From an uncultured Bacteroidota bacterium (GTDB lineage: Bacteria; Bacteroidota; Bacteroidia; AKYH767-A; OLB10): a DNA stretch of 34,017 nucleotides. The stretch spans positions 1 through 34,017 of the forward strand of contig CAIXTT010000188.1 in assembly GCA_903922455.1 (NCBI GenBank), read 5' to 3'. Shown here piece by piece: positions 750 through 32,417 of the stretch. A program made the position numbers and the translations under genes. Numbering within the stretch: the first letter of the stretch is position 1; every line of letters starts with the position of its first letter. Below the pieces are notes generated by a model. That model ran no database searches. It was not told where the DNA came from and saw nothing but the letters and a program-made list of their open reading frames with translations.

Positions 750-3700
750 TTATCGTCGGATAATTACGTAGCCATTAAGTGGCTTCTCGTCATTGCCCAA
801 ATCAAGGATATAATAGTAGGTTCCATTTGGTAAAACTTCCCCTATTCCAATCTTATCTACATTCGATAATCCAGTCCATGAATTATCATAACTATTCATT
901 TCATATACGAGTGTACCCCATCGATTAAATATTTTCAAATTCGCATTTGGAAATTGATCAATATAGCTGATCACATAATTATCATTGAATCCATCATTGT
1001 TTGGAGAAAATCCAGTAGGAACAACAATTGTATTACAATTTGAAGTGACAATAACATTATCTTGATTGGTACATCCATTCGCATCGGTAGTTGTTACTAT
1101 AAAAGTGTTCGTTGCAGATGTGTTTACAAGAGTACTGGATTGATTCGGCGTAGTACATAAATTTGCTGGAGTCCAACTGTACGTTAATCCACCAGTAGCA
1201 CTTAAAGTAAGCACATCATTACAGGCTACATTTTCATCTGTTCCTGCATCCACAATTGGAAGTGGATTTACAGTGACAGTTATAGGTCCATCTGTAAAGG
1301 TTCCGCAGCCAGATGCAGCCGAAATAGAATAATCTCCTCCTTGTGTAACCACTAATTGTGTAGTGGTATCTGATAGCAACGCAGCACCATTCAACATCCA
1401 CTGATACGATAATCCGGTGTAGGAAAGTACAGACAATGTTGCGCTATCACCTTCACAAAAAATATTATTTCCTGTAATAGTTATTGCAATTGAAGAAGTA
1501 TCCACTAAAGTATACCCTCCTACAACTTGACATCCTACCGAATCGGTAATCAATAATTGATAAAATCCAGCAGGTAAACTATCGAGTGCGGTTAAAGTAT
1601 CAGATGTATTCCATAAATAAGTGTAAGGCGCAACACCACCTGAAAGTGTAGTTTGAATACTTCCATACACACCTGCGAAACAATTTGGGTCCACCACTGT
1701 TGCGTTTAATACGATGAGAGAATTTAATTCAAAAATTGTATCGCTCATTGATAAGAAACATCCATTGGAATCGGTAACCAATACAGTATAAATTCCAGCT
1801 TGTATCCCATTCAATGAATCGGTTGTTGAACCGTTACTCCAGCTATAATTATACCCAGGAGTTCCGCCACTTACCGTAACACTCATAGCACCAGTACTGT
1901 CGCCAGCACAAACAATATCAGTGGAAGTAAGTGCGATGTTTAGTGCAGCCGAAGGAGCGATGATGGTATCTGTTAATGTATAAATACAAGCATTCGAATC
2001 GGTAACGATCACTGTATAAATTCCTGCTGCTAATGAATCTAAATCTTCATCGGTAGAGCTATTGTTCCAAGCATAAGAATAAGGACTTGTTCCACCCGAA
2101 ATTTGAATGTCGATGATACCATTATCTTCTCCGAAACATAAAACGTCTTGAGAAACTATAGTTCCAGATAGCGGCAACAGTGGTCCAGGTACAGTGTCTA
2201 AATACGTTAATACGCAACCGTTAGAGTCAAGAATAACGACATTATAAATTCCAATGGTTAAACTATCGACATCTTCATCCGTACTTCCATTCGACCAAGT
2301 AAATGAATAGGTTCCTGTTGGAGAAAGCGTAATATCAATAGCACCAATACTATCTCCTCCACATAAAACTGGAGTCACGGTGGCAGTAACTTGAGGTAAT
2401 GGATGAATATAGATGTACAACCAAGCCGTATCACAACCAGCAGGATTTTGTTGATCGCAAACAACATATTGCAAACTATCCCATCCTGCCGCATTGAAAT
2501 TGGCAGCATAAATAATTTCCTGATTTGCGCCAACAAAAGCTAATCCTTGGCTACCTTGAGCATAAATAGAAACGGTGAGAGTATCACCTTCTGGATCGAT
2601 ATCATTTCCTCTTACATAGATGATAGCAATATCTCCACCACAAACAATCGCCGAATCACTTTGAGCAATGGGTAAATCATTTACGGGTGTGACAGTAATA
2701 ATTACAAGAGCGGTATCACATAAAATTGGAGTTGGATAACCTGAATCGCAAATTGCATAAATCAAAGTATCGATTCCATTAAAATTAGAATCGGGGCAAT
2801 ACGTTAAAATACCAGTCGTAGGATCTAAACTATAAGTACCGTTTGATGGACTTGAGATAATAACTAATGTACTTAAGTCAATCATATTTTCTACATCCGT
2901 ATCATTGCTTAAGATGGCAATTTGGATGCAGGAATCTTCGGGAGTTGTTGCGTAATCGTCCACAGCTACCGGCGCATCGTTCACCGGATTAATCGTGATG
3001 ATGATCCATGCGGAATCACAATACACAGGCATACCATCGTCACAAATAATATATAAGATGGAATCCATTCCGTTAAAATTTGGACCCGGCGTGTAAATAA
3101 TTTGCCCTCCCGGACCAATGACAACACTTCCACTAAACGGACCTTGTAAAATTCCAAGTGCATTCGTATCCAAATTATTGTTGGGGTCAGAATCGTTATT
3201 CAAAACATAAATTACAACGGTTGTATCTTCACCCGTAGATATTGTATCATTTATTACAATCGGAGGATCGTTTACCCAAATCGTGATAGAAGCTGTACTT
3301 GTACAACCGAGACTATCCGATACCGTTAGTAAATAAGTAGTCGTTACAGTGGCAGTCACTGTTGGATTCGAAACTAAACTATCGTTCAATGTTAATCCCG
3401 GATTCCATTCATAAGTATACGGTGCCGTTCCTCCAGAAGCAGCAGGAAATCCTCCTAATATCACAAATGTTCCAGTAGGTACAAACTGATCTACACCCGC
3501 ATCGGCAACAGGAGCTGGAGAAATTGAAATAGCTACAGAGTCTGTACTGTTACAAGCGCCATTAGTAATACTCCAAACAAAGGTGTTTATTCCAATTTGT
3601 AAATTACTTACTGTTGAGCTTGGATTAGTTGGATTATCTAGTGTTGCTGCTCCTAAAGAAGTCCAGGCTCCTACACCACTTCCAGCAGCGTTTGCAGAAA

Positions 3701-6700
3701 GAGCAATGGACGAGGAAGCGCAAGCTAGTTGATCGACACCTGCATTGGCAACAATTATTGAATCCACTTGAATAATTATAGTATCACTGCTTGTACAACC
3801 ACCATTGGTTACTGACCAAACAAATGCATTGCTTCCATACACTAAATTACTCACTGCAGAATTTGCAGCAGCAAGATTAGAAATTGTTGCAGCACCTAAA
3901 CTTGTCCAGGCACCAACACTCGTTAGTGGGGCAACTGCATTTAAGTTTCCAATAAATATTTCGCAACCATTTTGATCAGGACCTGCATCAGCAATCTCAG
4001 CAGAATCTACTTGAACAAGTATTGTATCTGAACTTGTACATGTACCATTGTTGATAGTCCACACAAAGGAATAACTTCCAAAAGTATTTAATCCACTCAC
4101 TGTAGTACTCGCACTCGTTGGATTTGCAATGATTGCAGAACTGGTAGTTGTCCATTGTCCAACTCCTATTGTTGGAGTATTTCCTGACAAAGAAACAGTA
4201 CCACCCACACAAACCGCTTGATCAACGCCGGCATTTGCATTAATTAATGAATCGATTGTAATTAAAACGGTATCACTGGTTGTACAAGATCCATTAACGA
4301 GCGTCCAAACAAAAGAATAAATTCCTACTTGCATACCATTTACCACAGTATTTGGTAAAGTTGGATTTACGATGGTTGCTGCAGACGAAGTTGTCCACGT
4401 TCCTATGGCCGGTGCTGATGCATTTCCATTTAATGTAGAGGTTGTAACATTACATAAATTTTGATCGGAACCTGCATTTGCAATTATTGTACTATTTAAA
4501 GTGATTACAATAGTATCTTGAGCAATACAAGAACCATTGATAATGGTCCACACGAACGGATAAACACCTGAAGCCGCGAGTCCAGTGACTGTTGCATTAG
4601 GAGCGTTCACATTTGAAAACGTTCCTCCATTCAATGCAGTCCATGTTCCTGTACCACTCGCTGGAGTATTTCCTGCAAGCACCAAAGCATTTCCTAAACA
4701 AAGTTGTTGATCAGGACCTGCGTTGGCAGGAATCAATGTACTTACAATAATATTCACGGTATCACGAGTGACGCAAGCGCCATTAGTGATTGTCCAGACA
4801 AACGTATTGGTTCCGACAATAAGTCCAGTCACTCCTGAATTCGGATTGCTATTCGTTGTAATAGCACCACCCGTGGTAGAAGTCCAAAGACCCGCTCCAG
4901 GAGCAGCAGCATTTCCCGACAAAGTAGCTGTTGTTACATTACATAAATTTTGATCGGGACCAGCAGTAGCAATAACGTTACCGCTTACCGTTATACTCAT
5001 TGTATCGCGACTCACACAAGCACCGTTGGTGATGGTCCAAATAAAAGAGTAAGTTCCAGTTGTATTTAATCCGCTTACAGCAGAAGATGGATTGTTAGGA
5101 TTTGCAATGATCGCCGATGAGGATGTAGTCCAATTTCCACTACCAGGGGCAGGAGAATTTCCGCTCAGTGTAGCAGAGGGAGAACTTGCACAAATTTGTT
5201 GATCAGAACCTGCGTTGGATGGAATTAATGTACTAACAACAATATTGATCGTATCTCTGCTGATACAATTTCCATTAGTAATGGTCCATACAAATAAATT
5301 ATTTCCAATTGCTAAATTTGTGACTCCACTATTCGCTAAAGCTACATTTGTTACCACTGCTGAACCTAATGATGACCAACTTGCAGTTCCCGTTGCAGGC
5401 GCGTTACCCGCTAAAGTAGCTGCGGTAAGCGCACATAAATTTTGATCAGGGCCAGCGTTTGCCACAATGGCTGAGTCAACCGTAATACGAACCGTATCGC
5501 GAAGTACACAGGCGCCATTGGTAACTGTCCAAACAAACACATAGGCACCAGCGTTAGTTAATCCACTAACCGCAGTACTTGGATTAGTAGGATTCGCAAT
5601 GATAGCAGAAGAAGGCGTTGTCCACAATCCCGTTGCAGGGATTGGATTGTTACCAGAAAGACTGATGGACGCTCCTTGACAAATTTGTTGATCCAACCCA
5701 GCATTACTTGGAATTTGAACATTCACAGTTACACGCATGGTATCTCTACTGATACATGTTCCATTGGTGATCGTCCAAATAAATAAATGATTTCCTGGAG
5801 TAAGTGCAGTGATGGTTGTGGTCGGACTTGAAGGTGTTGTGATTGTTCCTCCATTTAATTTTGTCCACACACCAGTTCCTGGAGCAGGATTATTTCCTGC
5901 CATGGTTACCGATGTTTGTGATTCACAAATTTGAATATCGGGACCTGCATTTGAAATGATTAATGCATCTACTCTTATTATAATAGTATCTCTGCTTACA
6001 CAGGCACCATAAGTTGTTGTAAAGATAAAGGTGTTCAATCCAACAGATAATCCACTGACTGTAGTAGTAGCTGACGAAGGACTTGCAATCGTTGCACCGC
6101 TCGAGGTCGTCCATGCACCTATGCCAGGAGCAGGACTATTTCCAGTTAATGTTGCCGTGGTTGCATTACAAAATTGTTGATCGGGTCCGGCATTTGCAAT
6201 GACTGGATTTCGCACTATGAAAACTACCGTATCTCTTGAAACGCAGGGGCCATTCGTAATGGTCCAAACAAAATTGTAAAAACCTGATGTTATTAAACCA
6301 GTAACTGTAGTTACGTTGTTTGTAGGATTCGTAATAGTACCACCATTTAATGCGGTCCATAAACCTGTTCCAGGTGAAGGATTATTTCCACTTAACAAAC
6401 CAGAGGCAGTAGTAGTACATATTTGTTGGTTGTTCCCTGCATTGGCAACAATGGCAGTACTCACTGTCATTAACATTGTATCACGACTTACACATGCACC
6501 ATTTGTTACGGTCCAAATAAACGTATATACACCAGCGGTAGTTAATCCACTTACTGTAGATGTTGCACTGGTAGGGTTTGAAATGGTTGCTGAGGAAGTA
6601 GTAGTCCACAAACCTGATCCAGGAGCAGGACTTGACCCCGCTAGCGTTGCAGTTCCTGGTGATGCGCATACTAATTGATCGGCACCAGCAGCGGATACTA

Positions 6701-7562
6701 CAGGATTCGATACAATAATATTCATGGTATCTCTAATTACACAAGCTCCGTTGGTAACGGTCCAAACAAATACATAAGTACCTGGAGAAGTTAATCCTGT
6801 GATGGGTGTATTTCCATTTACTGGATTTGATATTGTAGCAGCGCTCGTTGTTGTCCACAGCCCTGTACCAGGAGCTGGATTTGAACCAGCCATTGTTGCT
6901 GTGCCCGGTGTTGTACATATATTCTGATCAGTACCTGCATTTACAACAACGGGTTGATCGACAATAACTGTCACTTGATCGGCATCACTGCATGTACCAT
7001 CGGATACTACCCAAAAGAATAAATACGTTCCACTAATTAAATTTGAAATAAGTGTCGTATCATTTGCAGGAGAAGCAATCACTCCTGAAGAAGCAGTAAA
7101 CCAAGTTCCGGTCACGCCTGCAATTCCAGGATCAAAGGCCATAATGGTGGTGGATGATTGCGGAGAACAAATACGTATTGTATTATTTATTGTCTGCGCC
7201 ACCAATACATAAATAATGTGAGTGATAGAATCCTGAAGTCCGTTGGCGTTTGTAACAACTAATTTAACTGTAAAGTTTCCTCCCGTAGCATAAGCATAAT
7301 TTGGATTTTGTATGGAGGAAGTACCACCATCTCCAAATGTCCAACTCCATCCAGTGATGGCGGCATTTCCGGGAAGTGACATATCAATAAAGGATACAGT
7401 ATTGCTAATACAAACGATGGTGTCGTTTGCATCAAATGCAGCAGTGGGAGCTTGTGCTTTGGCTGCTTGCGAGAAGCAACAAAGGAAGATCAAGACGACT
7501 CCTGCAATTCTTAAATTTCTAAAACTTCGAAACATTTTGTCGGTTTTGATGTCGTGGGACAT
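750..7562 (-). CDS. Giant secreted repeat protein with PKD, PKD-like, cadherin-like and SprB-type repeats and T9SS type B C-terminal domain
   Basis: A predicted cell-surface or extracellular protein of 2270 aa exported by Sec and then the type IX system. Residues 10-37 form a signal peptide ending AKA-QA; ATG codon 10 (position 7535) may be the true start, since it gives a normal short N-region. Order of parts: a PKD domain (about 38-118, WTFGDGGTSS); a divergent first module, then fourteen 81-83-residue modules opening A-N-A-G-x-D-Q (about 205-1352), each with two conserved cysteines; a related Ig-like unit; three cadherin-like units (about 1429-1720, NDPPIVINDTISTGEDT type); four SprB-like repeats (about 1730-2017, SNGSTDEDVDSL); two Ig-like units; and the C-terminal 90 residues with PTGFSPNNDGFND and FNRWGTLVY, the gliding-motility-associated type B sorting signal. 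It is a monocistron between two terminators. An adhesin or motility-surface role is inferred; the ligand is unknown. Confidence 0.9.
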   Translation of the reverse strand: MSHDIKTDKMFRSFRNLRIAGVVLIFLCCFSQAAKAQAPTAAFDANDTIVCISNTVSFIDMSLPGNAAITGWSWTFGDGGTSSIQNPNYAYATGGNFTVKLVVTNANGLQDSITHIIYVLVAQTINNTIRICSPQSSTTIMAFDPGIAGVTGTWFTASSGVIASPANDTTLISNLISGTYLFFWVVSDGTCSDADQVTVIVDQPVVVNAGTDQNICTTPGTATMAGSNPAPGTGLWTTTSAATISNPVNGNTPITGLTSPGTYVFVWTVTNGACVIRDTMNIIVSNPVVSAAGADQLVCASPGTATLAGSSPAPGSGLWTTTSSATISNPTSATSTVSGLTTAGVYTFIWTVTNGACVSRDTMLMTVSTAIVANAGNNQQICTTTASGLLSGNNPSPGTGLWTALNGGTITNPTNNVTTVTGLITSGFYNFVWTITNGPCVSRDTVVFIVRNPVIANAGPDQQFCNATTATLTGNSPAPGIGAWTTSSGATIASPSSATTTVSGLSVGLNTFIFTTTYGACVSRDTIIIRVDALIISNAGPDIQICESQTSVTMAGNNPAPGTGVWTKLNGGTITTPSSPTTTITALTPGNHLFIWTITNGTCISRDTMRVTVNVQIPSNAGLDQQICQGASISLSGNNPIPATGLWTTPSSAIIANPTNPSTAVSGLTNAGAYVFVWTVTNGACVLRDTVRITVDSAIVANAGPDQNLCALTAATLAGNAPATGTASWSSLGSAVVTNVALANSGVTNLAIGNNLFVWTITNGNCISRDTINIVVSTLIPSNAGSDQQICASSPSATLSGNSPAPGSGNWTTSSSAIIANPNNPSSAVSGLNTTGTYSFIWTITNGACVSRDTMSITVSGNVIATAGPDQNLCNVTTATLSGNAAAPGAGLWTSTTGGAITTNSNPNSGVTGLIVGTNTFVWTITNGACVTRDTVNIIVSTLIPANAGPDQQLCLGNALVLAGNTPASGTGTWTALNGGTFSNVNAPNATVTGLAASGVYPFVWTIINGSCIAQDTIVITLNSTIIANAGSDQNLCNVTTSTLNGNASAPAIGTWTTSSAATIVNPTLPNTVVNGMQVGIYSFVWTLVNGSCTTSDTVLITIDSLINANAGVDQAVCVGGTVSLSGNTPTIGVGQWTTTSSAIIANPTSASTTVSGLNTFGSYSFVWTINNGTCTSSDTILVQVDSAEIADAGPDQNGCEIFIGNLNAVAPLTSVGAWTSLGAATISNLAAANSAVSNLVYGSNAFVWSVTNGGCTSSDTIIIQVDSIIVANAGVDQLACASSSIALSANAAGSGVGAWTSLGAATLDNPTNPSSTVSNLQIGINTFVWSITNGACNSTDSVAISISPAPVADAGVDQFVPTGTFVILGGFPAASGGTAPYTYEWNPGLTLNDSLVSNPTVTATVTTTYLLTVSDSLGCTSTASITIWVNDPPIVINDTISTGEDTTVVIYVLNNDSDPNNNLDTNALGILQGPFSGSVVIGPGGQIIYTPGPNFNGMDSILYIICDDGMPVYCDSAWIIITINPVNDAPVAVDDYATTPEDSCIQIAILSNDTDVENMIDLSTLVIISSPSNGTYSLDPTTGILTYCPDSNFNGIDTLIYAICDSGYPTPILCDTALVIITVTPVNDLPIAQSDSAIVCGGDIAIIYVRGNDIDPEGDTLTVSIYAQGSQGLAFVGANQEIIYAANFNAAGWDSLQYVVCDQQNPAGCDTAWLYIYIHPLPQVTATVTPVLCGGDSIGAIDITLSPTGTYSFTWSNGSTDEDVDSLTIGIYNVVILDSNGCVLTYLDTVPGPLLPLSGTIVSQDVLCFGEDNGIIDIQISGGTSPYSYAWNNSSTDEDLDSLAAGIYTVIVTDSNACIYTLTDTIIAPSAALNIALTSTDIVCAGDSTGAMSVTVSGGTPGYNYSWSNGSTTDSLNGIQAGIYTVLVTDSNGCFLSMSDTIFELNSLIVLNATVVDPNCFAGVYGSIQTTLSGGVAPYTYLWNTSDTLTALDSLPAGFYQLLITDSVGCQVVGGYTLVDTSSIAITITGNNIFCEGDSATLSVLSYTGLSYQWMLNGAALLSDTTTQLVVTQGGDYSISAASGCGTFTDGPITVTVNPLPIVDAGTDENVACNDVLTLSATGGLTYSWTPANLCTTPNQSSTLVNTSATNTFIVTTTDANGCTNQDNVIVTSNCNTIVVPTGFSPNNDGFNDNYVISYIDQFPNANLKIFNRWGTLVYEMNSYDNSWTGLSNVDKIGIGEVLPNGTYYYILDLGNDEKPLNGYVIIRR
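3505..6950 (-). repeat. Fourteen tandem ~246-bp coding repeats (82-aa PKD-like modules)
   Basis: Inside the giant surface gene, the plus strand shows the complement of A-N-A-G-x-D-Q about every 246 bp. Fourteen units fill 3505-6950. Each ends with a segment like VWTxTNGxC followed by SRDT or TSSDT. Copies are diverged, not identical. The 15-mer ACATAAATTTTGATC recurs at 4452, 4941 and 5433, that is every second module, showing a higher-order two-module period. Confidence 0.9.
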
Positions 7563-24231: not shown

Positions 24232-25080
24232 ATGTCCCCAGAAGCTCAGGCGAAGTTTATTGATATAGAAGCCGTCATTCAATCCAAGAATCCTTCTCTT
24301 TTAAGATGGATGCCTAGGTTTGTGTTGAAGTACATCAAAAAAATTATTCATCAAGACCATGTAAATGATTTTATTTTTCGACAAGGTGATAAGCATTCAC
24401 ATGCATTTGTAGATGAAATTATAAGGGAATTTGGTGCCGAAGTATCCTTTGAGGGACTAGAAAATATTCCTGAAACAGGAGGGTGTATTATTGCTGCCAA
24501 TCATCCCATTGGCGGATTGGATTCCATTGCGCTGATGCAAACGGTGGCGAGAAAGAGGAAGGATATAAAATTTATTGTGAACGATGTTTTGTTACACATC
24601 AAAAACCTGAGTGACTTATTCATTGGCGTAAATAAGCATGGCAAAAATTCGACGGAAGTGTTAGATATGATTGACTCCTACTATGCGAGCGATATAGCCA
24701 TGCTCATCTTCCCGGCCGGATTGGTCTCCCGCAAACAGGAGCACGGATTAATTCGGGACTTAGTGTGGAAGAAGAGTTTTGTTGTAAAAGCAAAAAAACA
24801 TCAACGGAATATTATACCAGTACACATTGCTGGAAAAAATTCAAAATTTTTCTATAATCTCGCATGGTGGAGAGGTAAATTGGGCATCAAGGTCAATATT
24901 GAAATGTTTTATTTGATGGATGAGATGTACCGTCAGGATGGAAAAAAGATTCACATCACCATTGGAAAACCTATCCCCTATCCATTGTTAACACAAAAAC
25001 ATAATGATCAGGAATGGGCACAAAAAATTAAGTTACATATTTATAATTTAGCCGAAGGAAAAGACGAATTCGAAGCCTAA
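24232..25080 (+). CDS. 1-acyl-glycerol-3-phosphate acyltransferase-like (LPLAT/PlsC) protein; candidate glycine/ornithine-lipid O-acyltransferase (GlsA-like)
   Basis: A predicted membrane-associated O-acyltransferase of 282 aa. The LPLAT block I is AANHPIGGLD at residues 88-97; His91 and Asp97 are separated by five residues where the classic motif has four. Block III is FPAGLVSR at 160-167. There is no signal peptide. The gene is followed after one base by an OlsB/GlsB-type N-acyltransferase. In Bacteroides such a pair (GlsB and GlsA) makes glycine lipids, and elsewhere the fused OlsF makes ornithine lipids. By analogy this enzyme would add the second fatty acid to an N-acylated amino acid. 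The substrate is inferred. An in-frame TAG just upstream supports the ATG at 24232. Confidence 0.85.
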   Translation: MSPEAQAKFIDIEAVIQSKNPSLLRWMPRFVLKYIKKIIHQDHVNDFIFRQGDKHSHAFVDEIIREFGAEVSFEGLENIPETGGCIIAANHPIGGLDSIALMQTVARKRKDIKFIVNDVLLHIKNLSDLFIGVNKHGKNSTEVLDMIDSYYASDIAMLIFPAGLVSRKQEHGLIRDLVWKKSFVVKAKKHQRNIIPVHIAGKNSKFFYNLAWWRGKLGIKVNIEMFYLMDEMYRQDGKKIHITIGKPIPYPLLTQKHNDQEWAQKIKLHIYNLAEGKDEFEA

Positions 25081-25081
25081 A

Positions 25082-26011
25082 ATGATGCAAGATATTATTC
25101 CAGCCATTCCCTTAGATATCCTCGAAAAGGAATTATCGAAAGAACGCTTTGTTCGTGTTACGAATAATGGCTCTAATCATCTATACATTGTAAATCATCA
25201 TAACGCTCCAAATGTAGTTCGTGAAATTGGTCGGCTCCGTGAAGTGACATTTAGAGAATCTGGAGGAGGTACGGGATTGGATTGCGACCTTGATCATTTT
25301 GATACGAACGAAAATTGCTACGAACAACTCATTGCGTGGAACCCAGAAGACAAAGAAATTATAGGTGGGTATCGTTTCATTGAGTGTGGAAAAGTGAAAA
25401 AAGATCAAGAAGGAAATTATGAATTAGCCACGGCTGAATTATTTTCGTTTTCCAAAAAGTTCATTGATGATTTTATGCCCTTCACGATTGAGTTGGGAAG
25501 ATCATTTGTACAACCCAAGTATCAACCTCGTCCTGAAAATAGAAAAGGATTGTTTTCACTGGATAATTTATGGGATGGTTTAGGTGCTATTCATATTGAC
25601 TATCCACAAATAAAATATTTTTTCGGGAAAGTAACCATGTATCCACACTTCCAACGCGAAGCGCGTGATATGATATTGCATTTCATGAATTATTTTTTTC
25701 CAGACAAAGAAAATTTAGTGTTGGCGATTTATCCACTCAACATTGAAAATGACATGAGTGTATTTGCACAAGAAATTTCAGGACTTTCCTATAAAGAAGC
25801 GCATAAAATTCTCAACCAGCATGTGCGTGCACTAGGAGAAAACATTCCACCCTTAGTAAATGCCTATATGAATTTAAGTGCCACTATGCGCACCTTTGGC
25901 ACATCGGTAAACGAACATTTTGGAGACGTAGAAGAAACTGGAATTTTAGTCAGCTTAAACGATATTTACGAATCGAAAAAGGAAAGGCATGTGAAGACGT
26001 ATGTGAAGTAG
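25082..26011 (+). CDS. GNAT-fold N-acyltransferase, hemolysin/OlsB type; candidate glycine/ornithine-lipid N-acyltransferase (GlsB-like)
   Basis: Predicted to N-acylate an amino acid with a 3-hydroxy fatty acid from acyl-ACP, the first step of aminolipid synthesis. Length is 309 aa. Family landmarks are EIGRLREVTFRESGGGTG (about residues 54-71), the acidic DCDLDHFD stretch, QLIAWNPEDKEIIGGYRF and FTIELGRSFVQPKYQ. It starts one base after the stop of the upstream O-acyltransferase, so the two are almost certainly co-translated. The older annotation of this family as hemolysin is misleading. The glycine versus ornithine or other head group cannot be decided from sequence. Confidence 0.83.
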   Translation: MMQDIIPAIPLDILEKELSKERFVRVTNNGSNHLYIVNHHNAPNVVREIGRLREVTFRESGGGTGLDCDLDHFDTNENCYEQLIAWNPEDKEIIGGYRFIECGKVKKDQEGNYELATAELFSFSKKFIDDFMPFTIELGRSFVQPKYQPRPENRKGLFSLDNLWDGLGAIHIDYPQIKYFFGKVTMYPHFQREARDMILHFMNYFFPDKENLVLAIYPLNIENDMSVFAQEISGLSYKEAHKILNQHVRALGENIPPLVNAYMNLSATMRTFGTSVNEHFGDVEETGILVSLNDIYESKKERHVKTYVK

Positions 26012-27327: not shown

Positions 27328-27678
27328 TTATTTAATTACTTTTTTCTCTTTTCCGAAGCGATGAGCAAAGGCTTTGATCTCTTTCGCCATCTCACTGTCG
27401 CTGGTGGAACGCTCGTAGGTATCGGCCATACTTGCCAAAGTCTCATACATGAAAAACTCCATTTCCTCCACCGACATCTCATGGGTCCACAAATCAATTC
27501 GCATCGTACTTTTTTCTGCTTTGTCCCAAATAGCTAAAAGCATGGCACTTGCCGGCTTTTGAGCATCGAGGCCAGCATCTTGGGCAAGCCATTGAAGTCC
27601 AACAGGCTGCTTTTCTTCATTCAGCTCCACCATCACTTTAATTTCTGATCGGCGGGCAACTTTGGTGTTAATAGACAT
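27328..27678 (-). CDS. gldC: Gliding motility protein GldC
   Basis: A small soluble protein of 116 aa without signal peptide or membrane segment. It matches GldC from memory in length and in its conserved stretches SEIKVMVELNEEKQPVGLQW, MRIDLWTHEMSVEEMEFF and TLASMADTYERST. GldC is found in gliding Bacteroidota and related non-gliders; its molecular job is unclear and in Flavobacterium it supports but is not strictly part of the core motor. It lies upstream of engB. A candidate -7 box, TACTTTTG, lies 23 nt before the start. Its presence agrees with the T9SS signal on the giant protein. Confidence 0.9.
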   Translation of the reverse strand: MSINTKVARRSEIKVMVELNEEKQPVGLQWLAQDAGLDAQKPASAMLLAIWDKAEKSTMRIDLWTHEMSVEEMEFFMYETLASMADTYERSTSDSEMAKEIKAFAHRFGKEKKVIK

Positions 27679-27791: not shown

Positions 27792-30700
27792 ATGGCTAAA
27801 ACGATTTTACGAAAACTTACTTATCTGCTCATCTTTATGCTCTTGGCTCCCTCAGCCAAAGCTCAGTTTACTAGAGGCGTGCAGATGAATTTTGGGAAGA
27901 ACAGAGTTCAATATAATGATTTTTTATGGACTTTCTATCGCTTTAAAAATTTCGATACTTATTTCTACCTAGGCGGGCAAGAACTTGCCGTTTACACCGG
28001 AAGAACGGCAGATGCTGACATTGCAGAAATTGAAAAACTTTTTGATTATCGAATTAATGGTCGATTTCAGTTTATTATTTATAACCGATTGACGGATCTG
28101 AAGCAAACGAATATTGGGTTAGAGGGTGAAGAACAAAATACAAATACAGGTGGATTAACACGCATTGTTGGAAATAAAATTCTGATTTATTTTGATGGTG
28201 ATTATCGCCATTTCCGTGAACAAATTCGTGCTGGTGTAGCACAGGTGATGATAAATCAACTGATGTATGGAGGTAGTATTAAAGATCGTTTGCAAGCATC
28301 GGTATTGTTGAATTTACCGGAGTGGTATGTGAATGGATTAATTGCTTATGTTTCGAAAGGATGGGCGCCTGAAGAAGATAGCAAAATGCGTGATGCAATT
28401 TTAGGAAAGCATTATCGAAATTTTGATAACCTTACCGGACAAGATGCTGAGTTTGCAGGGATGTCGTTGTGGAATTATATTGTGGAGACGTATGGCAAAA
28501 CATCAGTTTCGAATTTGTTGTACATGACACGCATCAACCGAAATATAGAAAACGGTTTTATTTATGTGTTAGGTGTGCCGATGAAAGAAGTTCGGAAAAA
28601 TTGGATTCAGTATTATCAAAATCTTTATGTGGAAGATGATAAAAACAGAAAATTACCCGTTGGTGATCCTGTTTATGTTTTGAAAAAAAAAAATCGTTAT
28701 TTCAGTCAGGTAAGAGTGAGTCCGGATGGAAATCAAATTGCCTATGTGACCAACGATTTAGGAAAGTATAAGGTTTGGTTGTATGATGTGCGTACTAAGA
28801 AAAGAAAAAAAATTGCCAAGGGTGGATATAAGTCGGTGAACCAAGCGATGGATTTAAGTTATCCCACTTTAGCATGGCATCCTTCAGGAAGATATTTGAG
28901 TGCAATCAAGGAAAAGAAAGGAAAGCTCTGGTTAGATTATTATACATTCGGCAAGAAAACAAAACGCGAATCGAATAAATTTTTCTATTTCGAAAAAGTA
29001 CTCGACTTCAGTTATAATTCTTCTGGTTCAGAAATCGTATTATCAGCAGTGCAAAAAGGTCAATCCGATCTTTATAGTTTTATTCCGCGCACTAAAACTT
29101 ATACTCAACTCACGAAAGACCGTTGGGACGATCTTTCTCCAAAATTTGTGATGGACGATCGTTACATTATCTTCAGCTCTACACGCACCGAAGATACTTT
29201 GCGACCGACTCCTATTCGCCAAGCGGATGAGTTAGAAGTACCTCTTGCGAGCGATGTTTTCCTGTATGATTTCATGAACAAGTCAGCTCAACTTTTACAA
29301 CTCACCAATACTTATGGCATCAACGAAACGGAGCCGATTCAATTAGATTCGTCCCATTTCTCGTACCTCAGCGATGAGAACGGAATTAAAAACCGATATA
29401 CCGCTACGCTCGATAGTGCCATTGCCTATATTGATACGGTAATCCACTACCGCTATATTGTAAAATCGGAACCACAAAGTGATTACAAAAGGAATGTATT
29501 GCAACACGATTTGAGCAGCAAAGGAACCAAGTATGCTGAGTTGATGCATTTGAATTCACGCTATCAAATCTTTTTGAATCCGGCTCCATCCTCTTCTTCG
29601 GTACTTACGGAACCACTAAAAAATACAAGCTTACGTATTAAGAATTTTAGAGCTGCTGCTCCTAAAAAAGAAAAATCGCAGAGCGGAACCGCCGTAAAAG
29701 TAGTTACACAAGAAAACTTCTCCACTTCTACCAATACGGAAAAAGTAGCCGACAGCACTTCCATCGATATTAATAATTATGTTTTCCAGTCGGATTTTCC
29801 ACGCAAGAAAAATAAAAAGGAAAAAGAAAAACCAGTTGTAGAAAAACCAGCCGTTGATTCAATAAATTTAGTTGATCCATTTGCACCAAATACAAGTGAA
29901 ACACTTGCAGGAATTATTGCACAAGGTCCTGTGGAAGATTCTGCTTCTTATTTGTTACCCAAGCAACGCAACTACGAATTATCGTTTATGCCAAGTTATG
30001 TATTAACACAACTCGACAATAATTTATTGAATGAAACTTATCAAGCCTACACAGGTGGAGCGGTTTATTTTTATCCAGGATTAAACGCACTATTTAAAAT
30101 TGGATTGAATGATCTCTTTGATGATTATCGTATTGTGGGCGGATTTCGACTCAGTGGAAATTTAAATTCAAATGAGTATTATGTACGTTATGAAAATTTA
30201 AAACATCGACTCGATAAATCCATTTCATTTTACCGCCAAGGGCGCGAGGAAGCAACCAATTTTTCGCTTTATAAAGTGCATACGCACGAAGTGAAATACA
30301 ATGTGCGCTGGCCGTTCAACGATTTAGCAAGCGTGCGTGGAATGGTGGCTTATCGTAATGACCGATTAGCTATTTTGAGTACCGATTTAGTCAATCTCAC
30401 TATACCTAATCAATTCCAACATTGGGGATCAGCGCGGGCTGAATTTGTTTATGATAACTCTATTAACACTGGCTTGAATCTTTACAACGGGATCCGTTAC
30501 AAAGTTTTTGCAGAGCTCTATCAACAACTCGATCAAAAGAATGCCGTATTAGGTGTATTCGGTGCCGACTTCCGTCACTATCTCAAGATCCATCGTCAAC
30601 TCATCTGGGCGAATCGTTTTGCAGCAAGTACATCTATTGGTACGCGTAAATTGATTTACTATTTAGGTTCTACGGACAATGCATTTACCCCGACCGATAA

Positions 30701-31157
30701 TTTCAATTACGATATTCAGATTGATCAAACACAGCAATATGCTTTTCAAGCCTTAGCAACCAACATGCGTGGATTTATTCAAAACATCAGAAACGGAAAT
30801 AGTTTCGCGCTCATCAACAGTGAAATTCGTCTTCCTATATTTCAATACTTAGTCAACAAACCGATACGTTCCGATTTCATTCGCAACTTCCAAATCGTTG
30901 GATTCGGTGATATCGGTACTGCTTGGACAGGTCCAAATCCTTATGACAAATCGAACTCTTTATTTAGAAAAGATTATAATGGAAATCCAATCAGCATCTC
31001 TGTTACGAAAACGGTAGAACCTATTGTTGGCGGATATGGATTTGGATTGCGGAGCAGAGTGCTTGGCTACTTCCTACGTGCCGACTGGGCTTGGGGTGTG
31101 GATGATGGTGTGGTGCAGGAAAGAATATTTTATTTCTCGCTCGGACTTGATTTCTAA
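27792..31157 (+). CDS. Outer-membrane TolB-like beta-propeller protein with degenerate peptidase MA-like domain and C-terminal barrel
   Basis: A protein of 1121 aa with a signal peptide (residues 1-25, ending SAKA-QF). Residues about 45-290 resemble the gluzincin peptidase MA fold, but the HExxH position reads AGVAQ (147-151) and the third-ligand segment WxxEG reads WYVNG, so zinc binding is probably lost. Residues about 300-620 carry TolB/WD40-like blades (VRVSPDGNQIAYVTND, LAWHPSGRYLSAIK, LSAVQKGQSDLYSF). A Lys/Ser-rich linker (about 620-720, PRKKNKKEKEKP) leads to about 400 residues of alternating aromatic strands ending YFSLGLDF, with the terminal Phe typical of outer-membrane barrels. 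The function is unknown; scaffolding or envelope assembly is a guess. It is divergent from gldC. Confidence 0.8.
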   Translation: MAKTILRKLTYLLIFMLLAPSAKAQFTRGVQMNFGKNRVQYNDFLWTFYRFKNFDTYFYLGGQELAVYTGRTADADIAEIEKLFDYRINGRFQFIIYNRLTDLKQTNIGLEGEEQNTNTGGLTRIVGNKILIYFDGDYRHFREQIRAGVAQVMINQLMYGGSIKDRLQASVLLNLPEWYVNGLIAYVSKGWAPEEDSKMRDAILGKHYRNFDNLTGQDAEFAGMSLWNYIVETYGKTSVSNLLYMTRINRNIENGFIYVLGVPMKEVRKNWIQYYQNLYVEDDKNRKLPVGDPVYVLKKKNRYFSQVRVSPDGNQIAYVTNDLGKYKVWLYDVRTKKRKKIAKGGYKSVNQAMDLSYPTLAWHPSGRYLSAIKEKKGKLWLDYYTFGKKTKRESNKFFYFEKVLDFSYNSSGSEIVLSAVQKGQSDLYSFIPRTKTYTQLTKDRWDDLSPKFVMDDRYIIFSSTRTEDTLRPTPIRQADELEVPLASDVFLYDFMNKSAQLLQLTNTYGINETEPIQLDSSHFSYLSDENGIKNRYTATLDSAIAYIDTVIHYRYIVKSEPQSDYKRNVLQHDLSSKGTKYAELMHLNSRYQIFLNPAPSSSSVLTEPLKNTSLRIKNFRAAAPKKEKSQSGTAVKVVTQENFSTSTNTEKVADSTSIDINNYVFQSDFPRKKNKKEKEKPVVEKPAVDSINLVDPFAPNTSETLAGIIAQGPVEDSASYLLPKQRNYELSFMPSYVLTQLDNNLLNETYQAYTGGAVYFYPGLNALFKIGLNDLFDDYRIVGGFRLSGNLNSNEYYVRYENLKHRLDKSISFYRQGREEATNFSLYKVHTHEVKYNVRWPFNDLASVRGMVAYRNDRLAILSTDLVNLTIPNQFQHWGSARAEFVYDNSINTGLNLYNGIRYKVFAELYQQLDQKNAVLGVFGADFRHYLKIHRQLIWANRFAASTSIGTRKLIYYLGSTDNAFTPTDNFNYDIQIDQTQQYAFQALATNMRGFIQNIRNGNSFALINSEIRLPIFQYLVNKPIRSDFIRNFQIVGFGDIGTAWTGPNPYDKSNSLFRKDYNGNPISISVTKTVEPIVGGYGFGLRSRVLGYFLRADWAWGVDDGVVQERIFYFSLGLDF

Positions 31158-31223: not shown

Positions 31224-32417
31224 ATGATCTCAGCAAAAAAAGTGCAAGAGTTAGCCATACAACAACAAGAAGAAATTGTGGCCATTCGTCGGCATTTGCA
31301 TAGTCACCCGGAATTATCTTTTATGGAGTTTAACACTTCTAAATTTGTTGCAGAGAAATTAACAGCATTCGGAATTCCGTTCAAAGATAAAGTGGCGGGT
31401 ACTGGATTGGTAGGACTCGTCGAAGGAAAAAATCCATCTTCAAAAATCATTGCGCTCCGCGCCGATATGGATGCATTGCCCATCACCGAAACTAACGATG
31501 TGCCTTACCGAAGTCAGAACGAAGGCGTCATGCACGCTTGCGGTCACGACGCACATACATCATCTCTTTTAGGTGCTGCCTCCATCTTGAATCAATTAAA
31601 AGGCGAATTTGAAGGCACTATCAAACTCATTTTTCAACCTGGCGAAGAGAAACTTCCTGGTGGTGCTTCCATGATGATTAAAGAGGGCGTGTTGGAAAAT
31701 CCAAAACCTTCCAGTGTTTTTGGACAACATGTGATGCCTTTTATTCCAGCAGGAAAAGTAGGATTCAGAAGTGGAATATACATGGCGAGTACTGATGAAC
31801 TTTATTTGAAAGTAAAAGGAAAAGGTGGACATGGAGCCATGCCGCATTTAAATATTGATCCTGTGCTAATCACTTCTCATTTAATTGTTGCCATGCAACA
31901 GATTGTTAGTCGTGTAGCCAATCCAATTTTACCGAGTGTACTCTCCTTCGGAAAAGTAATTGCGAATGGAGCAACGAATGTTATTCCAGATGAAGTTTAT
32001 ATTGAAGGCACTTTCCGCACATTGGATGAAAAGTGGAGAGAGGAAGCCCATCAACGTATGCTCGATCTTGCTCATCAATTAGTAGAATCGATGGGAGGAA
32101 AATTAGAATTCGAAATTAGAAAAGGATATCCTACTTTATACAACGACGAAGCGTTAACTGCGCGCGCAAAACAAAATGCAATCGACTATTTAGGAGAAGA
32201 AAACGTGGTTGATTTAAGCATTTGGATGGCAGCAGAAGACTTTGCTTTCTTCTCCCAAACGGCACCGTCCTGCTTCTATCGCTTAGGAACTCGTAATGAA
32301 GCGCGTGGCATTATTTCATCTGTGCATACTCCAACTTTCGACATCGAAGAAAATGCTTTGCAAATTGGAACAGGCCTCATGGCTTGGTTAGCCATTTGTG
32401 AATTACAATCAGCTTAA
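31224..32417 (+). CDS. M20 family metallopeptidase / N-acyl-amino-acid amidohydrolase
   Basis: A di-zinc hydrolase of the M20D (hippurate/IAA-amino-acid hydrolase-like) group that cleaves N-acyl or peptidyl amide bonds. Length is 397 aa. Visible landmarks are HSHPELSF near residue 26, LRADMDALPI at 78-87, HACGHDAH with metal ligands Cys106 and His108, FQPGEE with Glu141-Glu142, the dimerisation-domain motif GKGGHGAMPH and the late MAAEDFAFF. There is no signal peptide, so it is cytoplasmic. It lies 66 bp after the barrel protein on the same strand. The natural substrate cannot be told from sequence. Given the nearby amino-acid lipid genes, an acyl-amino-acid substrate is conceivable but unsupported. 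Confidence 0.92.
   Translation: MISAKKVQELAIQQQEEIVAIRRHLHSHPELSFMEFNTSKFVAEKLTAFGIPFKDKVAGTGLVGLVEGKNPSSKIIALRADMDALPITETNDVPYRSQNEGVMHACGHDAHTSSLLGAASILNQLKGEFEGTIKLIFQPGEEKLPGGASMMIKEGVLENPKPSSVFGQHVMPFIPAGKVGFRSGIYMASTDELYLKVKGKGGHGAMPHLNIDPVLITSHLIVAMQQIVSRVANPILPSVLSFGKVIANGATNVIPDEVYIEGTFRTLDEKWREEAHQRMLDLAHQLVESMGGKLEFEIRKGYPTLYNDEALTARAKQNAIDYLGEENVVDLSIWMAAEDFAFFSQTAPSCFYRLGTRNEARGIISSVHTPTFDIEENALQIGTGLMAWLAICELQSA

Follow-up and report, generated by a model that had tools for sequence, protein, structure and literature searches.

A probable ancient pseudopeptidase domain in a POTRA-less outer-membrane protein of the WD40-Omp85 kind from Bacteroidia

Among the Omp85 proteins, the WD40-Omp85 subfamily of Heinz and Lithgow (2014) has a TolB-like propeller that replaces the POTRA domains, and the available part of that account likens the arrangement to a BamA-BamB fusion (PMC4104836). 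In the same text, PlpD is discussed as an Omp85 protein by which a lipolytic domain reaches the surface, and outer-membrane translocation is raised as a possibility for Omp85-metalloproteases (PMC4104836). As for peptidases at the outer membrane, BepA acts on LptD at BAM either by assisting or by degrading it, and its protease-dead variant E137Q, in the available text, still crosslinks LptD, with assembly promotion below that of the wild type (PMC8423444).

The window, which is the whole stretch of 34,017 nucleotides analysed here (contig CAIXTT010000188.1, assembly GCA_903922455.1, from an uncultured Bacteroidota bacterium), encodes a protein of this WD40-Omp85 kind, with a TolB-like propeller ahead of its Omp85 barrel (Table 1). 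Built from 44 rows, the full-length model (mean pLDDT 81.3, pTM 0.78, with the linker below pLDDT 50 at construct residues 602-694) predicts a three-domain layout, in which a gluzincin fold and the propeller stand where POTRA domains are expected and the Omp85-type barrel follows behind. Peptidase-like domain and barrel lie in one frame in all 20 loci of the wider sample, which comprise 12 intact-site relatives and two f69 loci from outside the class and six class members, and all 20 match the full-length profile. Class membership was taken from kinship labels, the near relatives being Bacteroidia and Sphingobacteriales bacteria. An intact relative (L139) has matches over cut-off to PF13485 (5.2e-15), PD40 (5.7e-19) and PF01103 Omp85 (3.1e-12) within one protein.

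Table 1. Features of the pseudopeptidase-propeller-Omp85 gene and of its conserved neighbour, in window positions
Feature	Position	Strand	Basis
Pseudopeptidase-propeller-Omp85 gene, 1121 aa	27792..31157 (including stop)	+	ORF; relatives; full-length model
Probable signal peptide, residues 1-25, ending ...PSAKAQ	27792..27866	+	Read off the sequence
Predicted gluzincin-fold (peptidase MA-like) domain, residues 36-292	27897..28667	+	Model, fold matches, profile alignment
IRAGVAQVMI, residues 145-154, at the HExxH-helix place; A147 G148 Q151	28224..28253	+	Alignment, hhalign
WYVNGLIAY, residues 178-186, at the WxxEGLAEY place; N181 for the third-ligand Glu	28323..28349	+	Alignment, hhalign
Predicted TolB-like beta-propeller, residues ~288-589	28653..29558	+	VIA Z 23.1 to 2ojh; TIGR02800 E=3e-12
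Disordered, fast-changing linker, residues 626-718	29667..29945	+	pLDDT <50; pairwise identity 0.19
Predicted Omp85/BamA-type barrel, residues 720-1121	29949..31154	+	VIA Z 24.9 to 8xnb
MRGF, residues 992-995, at the Omp85 L6 (V/I)RG(F/Y) place	30765..30776	+	R, G invariant in 36/36 barrels
FGDIG, residues 1038-1042, at the Omp85 FxDxG place	30903..30917	+	F, D, G invariant in 36/36 barrels
M20-type amidohydrolase gene, conserved neighbour within the order	31224..32417	+	TIGR01891 357 bits, over cut-off

An earlier note, made from the sequence alone, had already taken the gene product for an outer-membrane propeller-barrel protein, and the full-length model bears this out. The best VIA scores are Z 23.1 for the propeller (model residues 264-565) against Agrobacterium tumefaciens TolB (2ojh) and Z 24.9 for the barrel against Deinococcus radiodurans BamA (8xnb; 3.8 Å over 315 residues), followed by Z 23.7 against Flavobacterium johnsoniae BamA (9n2e); the best Foldseek E-values are 1.3e-9 for BamA and 2.3e-8 for TolB. 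The NCBIfam model for TolB (TIGR02800) covers the propeller repeats only and reaches 46 bits, against an equivalog cut-off of 343, so that the protein appears not to be the TolB of Tol-Pal; the PD40 repeat is likewise under its Pfam cut-off in the window protein (E=0.0014). A PF01103 (Omp85) search of the window protein was empty up to E=10, and the barrel profile (A3) found no BamA among PDB sequences; the barrel assignment therefore rests on the fold, two motifs and the relatives. The motifs are MRGF, which we take to be the Omp85 L6 motif (V/I)RG(F/Y), and FGDIG, presumably its partner FxDxG. Together with these motifs, the BamA-type fold of the predicted barrel places the protein in the Omp85 superfamily.

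The N-terminal domain was modelled separately (residues 36-292, 257 residues; 47 rows, mean pLDDT 83.4, pTM 0.81). Comparison of a structure prediction with gluzincin folds, proposed in the earlier note, gave peptidases as its best matches. In Foldseek, the five PDB hits at E<=0.001 are without exception peptidase domains of clostridial collagenases. VIA ranks families M9, M30 and M1 highest (Z 14.5 to 12): Grimontia collagenase has Z 14.5 (3.6 Å over 220 residues), lugdulysin of M30 has Z 14.2, and the M1 peptidases have Z 12-13. As most of the model is helical, and such models may score Z 13-14 even where no clear relative exists, Z alone is weak and homology is argued from sequence profiles, the fold matches agreeing with each other and with hhalign. 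There, a profile of 47 N-terminal domains (A1, which has one intact row, L043) aligned end to end with a profile of 47 intact relatives (A4), with a probability of 100 and E=8.9e-62 over 251 columns.

Single-family searches recognise the intact relatives more readily. Peptidase_MA_2 (PF13485) matches 45 of the 47 intact members at E<=0.01 (best 3e-18; L061, with 61.4 bits, is over cut-off) and 18 of the 47 A1 members (best 4.6e-7; the set includes the intact L043), and against the window protein it gives E=0.0022-0.023 depending on the cut (0.023 with the protein uncut, 0.0032 with residues 1-293), the domain missing the curated cut-off with 17.7-18.2 bits against 32.4. The same search of the window's own genome and 14 controls returned zero matches, which indicates just that it is blind here. 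Against PDB sequences, the N-terminal-domain profile found no gluzincin (best E 0.12, with unrelated names), and the profile of intact relatives found a glutamyl aminopeptidase (E=0.00064). By its predicted fold, rather than by a sequence-family cut-off, the domain is a member of the gluzincins and of Peptidase_MA_2.

The earlier note had aligned IRAGVAQVMI by eye and without gaps to IAHELTHVLI, and WYVNGLIAY to WxxEGLAEY. The same register was obtained by hhalign, which sets the H, E and H of the first motif on A147, G148 and Q151 and the third-ligand Glu of the second on N181. These are the residues of the window protein at the HExxH...E positions and, going by the missing HExxH and third-ligand Glu, its N-terminal domain would not be an active gluzincin peptidase. 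In the 50 rows aligned first, position 148 is Gly in 46 and position 147 Ala in 33, whereas 151 (Gln in 18, Arg in 16) and 181 (Gln in 14, Asn in 13, Glu in 10) vary; W178 and G182 are conserved in all 50.

The wider set holds 138 aligned stretches, of which the 130 of at least 180 residues were counted; the eight shorter ones (from L132-L136) were left out, one of them, L135, reading HEHE. A full site is present in 51 of the 130 domains (49 by alignment column, plus L109 and L115, both HELVH, by eye across an alignment gap or shift) and absent from 79; of the latter, 77 are class rows, 70 of them unique, and the remaining two are f69 rows from outside the class (L103 and L104). Outside the class the site is thus kept in 41 of 43 domains. 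The other ten intact rows come from class genomes: L110-L116 from seven f25 genomes, L123 from G220, L128 from G236, and L043, which keeps HELLH and EG, has a source genome with 3% estimated contamination and may be foreign to it. Because of these intact rows the claim is limited to the orthologue group of the window protein, in which the site is lost in every member seen.

An orthologue alignment at positions 147, 148, 151 and 181, the other check suggested in the earlier note, found the full set in none of the 70 unique class domains; W178 and G182 are present in all 70, which, with the gluzincin fold matches, upholds the view that the fold landmarks remain and the catalytic set is gone. The 51 unique intact domains are nearly uniform (H147, E181 and A184 100%; E148, H151 and E185 98%). 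The class domains have G148 in 80% and A147 in 47%, with A/E/Q/S seen at 147, R/Q/E/K at 151 and Q/N/E/D at 181, and they have lost Y220, which is present in 86% of the intact domains. Retained landmarks are P176, W178, G182, Y186 and G223. Several residues have been gained in the class relative to the intact set, namely W46 (100% vs 67%), G160 (100% vs 61%), W227 (99% vs 55%), W191 (91% vs 43%) and G109 (94% vs under 33%). Traces of the old site persist in a few class rows, such as L075 with H147 and D148.

The history of the loss was read from a FastTree phylogeny of 79 proteins built on 726 columns outside the peptidase domain. The 51 class proteins form one clade (support 0.99), with the intact L131 as its weakly placed sister (0.428), and two changes are enough to explain site loss on the whole tree, against a minimum of 14 in 1000 shuffles. 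A FastTree phylogeny of the peptidase domain only, from which seven duplicate rows had been removed beforehand, also gives a class clade, of 70 members (support 0.616). The loss on the class side was a single old event that the class members sampled have in common. Family f69 contributes a pair (support 1.0) that branches within the intact group and whose sister is the intact L156 (0.967); L103 and L104 have both HExxH His replaced and both Glu kept, a second, independent and partial loss, small and outside the class. In the same family, L154 and L155 (G333 and G341) read RELE and RERE at 147/148/151/181.

The domain without a site has remained constrained. Its non-synonymous distances (0.093-0.204 in eight pairs) are close to those of the barrel and, in every pair, smaller than those of the propeller, and its dN/dS is 0.044-0.157 in the five of eight pairs where it could be computed, ratios that are rough because dS is saturated. 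Mean pairwise identity is 0.476 for the peptidase-like domain, 0.384 for the propeller, 0.191 for the linker and 0.509 for the barrel. Purifying selection has thus acted on the domain since the loss. Because a single loss is shared, the whole domain is homologous to intact relatives and non-synonymous change is low, the N-terminal domain is probably an ancient pseudopeptidase of a POTRA-less protein of the WD40-Omp85 kind. Beyond what the earlier note contained, close full-length relatives retain the active site, and the loss is one event across the sampled class members.

The protein is present in 59 of 61 genomes (the window's own and its relatives), and the domain was matched in 193 of 296 genomes of the phylum sample, a count that includes intact paralogues. 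Many of the unmatched genomes belong to f28, and those listed as unmatched there have no domain match. Genus g47 of this family was taken as Flavobacterium, from a BamA with 1716 bits to F. johnsoniae BamA. Two class genomes hold both types of copy: G220 (dead L093, intact L123) and G236 (dead L088, intact L128). A plasmid of Salinibacter ruber, pSR116, carries a sequence (L159, 3944-5845) that is related to the N-terminal half and annotated as a basic secretory protein-like protein.

Of the 29 order-level loci L002-L030, 28 have the M20-type amidohydrolase next to the gene, as does one of the 20 wider loci, the flank being too short to judge in L031-L050; no function is drawn from this neighbourhood. 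On the other side, divergent from the pseudopeptidase gene, lies the gene for GldC (27328-27678, minus strand; TIGR03515 over cut-off), followed by EngB (YihA/YsxC), and these two adjoin it in the nearest relatives only. Elsewhere in the window are the glycine-lipid synthesis genes GlsA and GlsB (24232-26011, plus strand; both over NCBIfam cut-offs) and a gene for a 2270-aa protein (750-7562, minus strand) that combines Ig/PKD/cadherin-like repeats, SprB repeats and a CHU_C type IX secretion signal domain; this gene adjoins a cell-division/murein cluster (FtsZ, FtsA, Mur ligases, FtsW-type, MraY-type and PBP).

Here it is considered fairly probable that the domain is an ancient pseudopeptidase, emptied by one loss and then held under purifying selection, whose cleft holds a client or partner below the Omp85 barrel without cutting it. 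An ancestral outer-membrane protein that united a gluzincin peptidase, a TolB-like propeller and an Omp85 barrel lost, in one event on the line to the class members sampled, every zinc ligand of its peptidase domain and the general-base Glu as well. If Omp85 topology holds, as is assumed here, the gluzincin domain and the propeller would hang in the periplasm in place of POTRA domains, and the barrel would insert or export outer-membrane or surface proteins. The emptied cleft may bind an extended client segment or a partner with no cleavage, and another partner may dock on the propeller, in the manner of BamB or TolB. Where relatives have kept the site, the domain would also cut stalled clients, comparable to BepA with LptD at BAM. 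The suggestion of the earlier note that the domain is a binding module fits both the conservation and the BepA precedent. Against this reading, positions 147, 151 and 181 vary in the class, so that no new ligand is indicated at exactly those positions.

That the domain still binds metal and acts through displaced ligands is extremely improbable. An HExxH string does occur nine residues upstream (residues 138-142) in three of the 50 rows aligned first (L015, L017 and L018), and D196 is 86% conserved; the string is not retained in the close relatives of these three rows, where its second His is Arg or Lys. HExxH occurs in the barrel of one of 51 full-length class proteins (L046). The 70 unique class domains have no conserved His or Cys column (the best reach 59% for His and 4% for Cys), which makes a relocated metal site unlikely. 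The earlier note had named an HExxH elsewhere in the orthologues as one of two findings that would overturn its reading, and no conserved displaced site was found. The variation at positions 147, 151 and 181 would also suit a domain that serves as spacer or scaffold where POTRA domains used to be expected, with an empty cleft and only its outer surfaces of importance, as would the kept landmark residues and the single long conserved unit between signal peptide and propeller. Such a scaffold is nevertheless unlikely, since the domain is conserved nearly like the barrel and above the propeller and new conserved residues have appeared in the class clade.

The N-terminal half could instead be a passenger brought to the surface by its own Omp85 barrel in the style of PlpD, the dead domain binding a surface ligand; the precedent of PlpD and the translocation raised for Omp85-metalloproteases in the available text (PMC4104836) speak for it. 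With two domains and 550 residues the passenger would be large, however, and the TolB-like propeller resembles periplasmic proteins, which leaves this quite improbable. It is more doubtful still that the class proteins are inactive partners regulating an active paralogue, as the dead copy and intact paralogue found together in G220 and in G236 would allow; the window's genome and most matched class genomes have a single match, so that there is usually no active partner from this family. It is also proposed, as less likely than not, that the built-in quality-control protease of an Omp85 insertase switched once, at the base of the sampled Bacteroidia, from hold-or-cut to hold only, the dead domain becoming a dedicated client-holding module, with f69 (L103/L104) as a second lineage on the same path.

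Set against known systems, the window protein has the fold of Peptidase_MA_2 (PF13485) and whole-domain homology to it via the intact relatives, with the three zinc ligands and the catalytic Glu of these peptidases all replaced. With WD40-Omp85 proteins it has the layout of propeller and Omp85 barrel in common (PMC4104836), whereas in the available part of that account neither an N-terminal gluzincin domain nor its inactivation is included, the word 'peptidase' is absent from the main text, and the 'Metallo' group is PF00149, a family other than PF13485 (PMC4104836). The WD40-Omp85 kind is published; searches of open-licence PMC papers turned up no description of a gluzincin domain at its N-terminus or of the inactivation of such a domain. 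The barrel fold (Z 24.9) and the places of MRGF and FGDIG are common to BamA/TamA, unlike the pseudopeptidase and propeller that the window protein has at the expected place of POTRA. From the same phylum, the F. johnsoniae BAM likewise serves outer-membrane biogenesis, and the subunits named in the available text are without this protein (PMC12611786); TamL is another Omp85 protein, and WD40, TolB and propeller are absent from the available text of its paper (PMC12045153). Since the gene is missing from the sampled Flavobacterium genomes, it could not have come to light in studies of the purified F. johnsoniae BAM, and an Omp85 protein widespread in Bacteroidia would be overlooked there.

The likeness to BepA lies in a gluzincin dealing with barrel-protein intermediates at an Omp85 barrel, where, in the available text, binding counts in both assembly and degradation (PMC8423444). 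BepA is a separate M48 protein with an intact site, whereas the domain of the window protein is fused to the barrel and its site is dead; as M48 is another gluzincin family, the comparison is one of working style. The intact and site-less relatives described here make up a natural series of putatively active and inactive versions of a single three-domain outer-membrane protein, through which BepA's question, cutting versus holding by a gluzincin at an Omp85 barrel, becomes testable.
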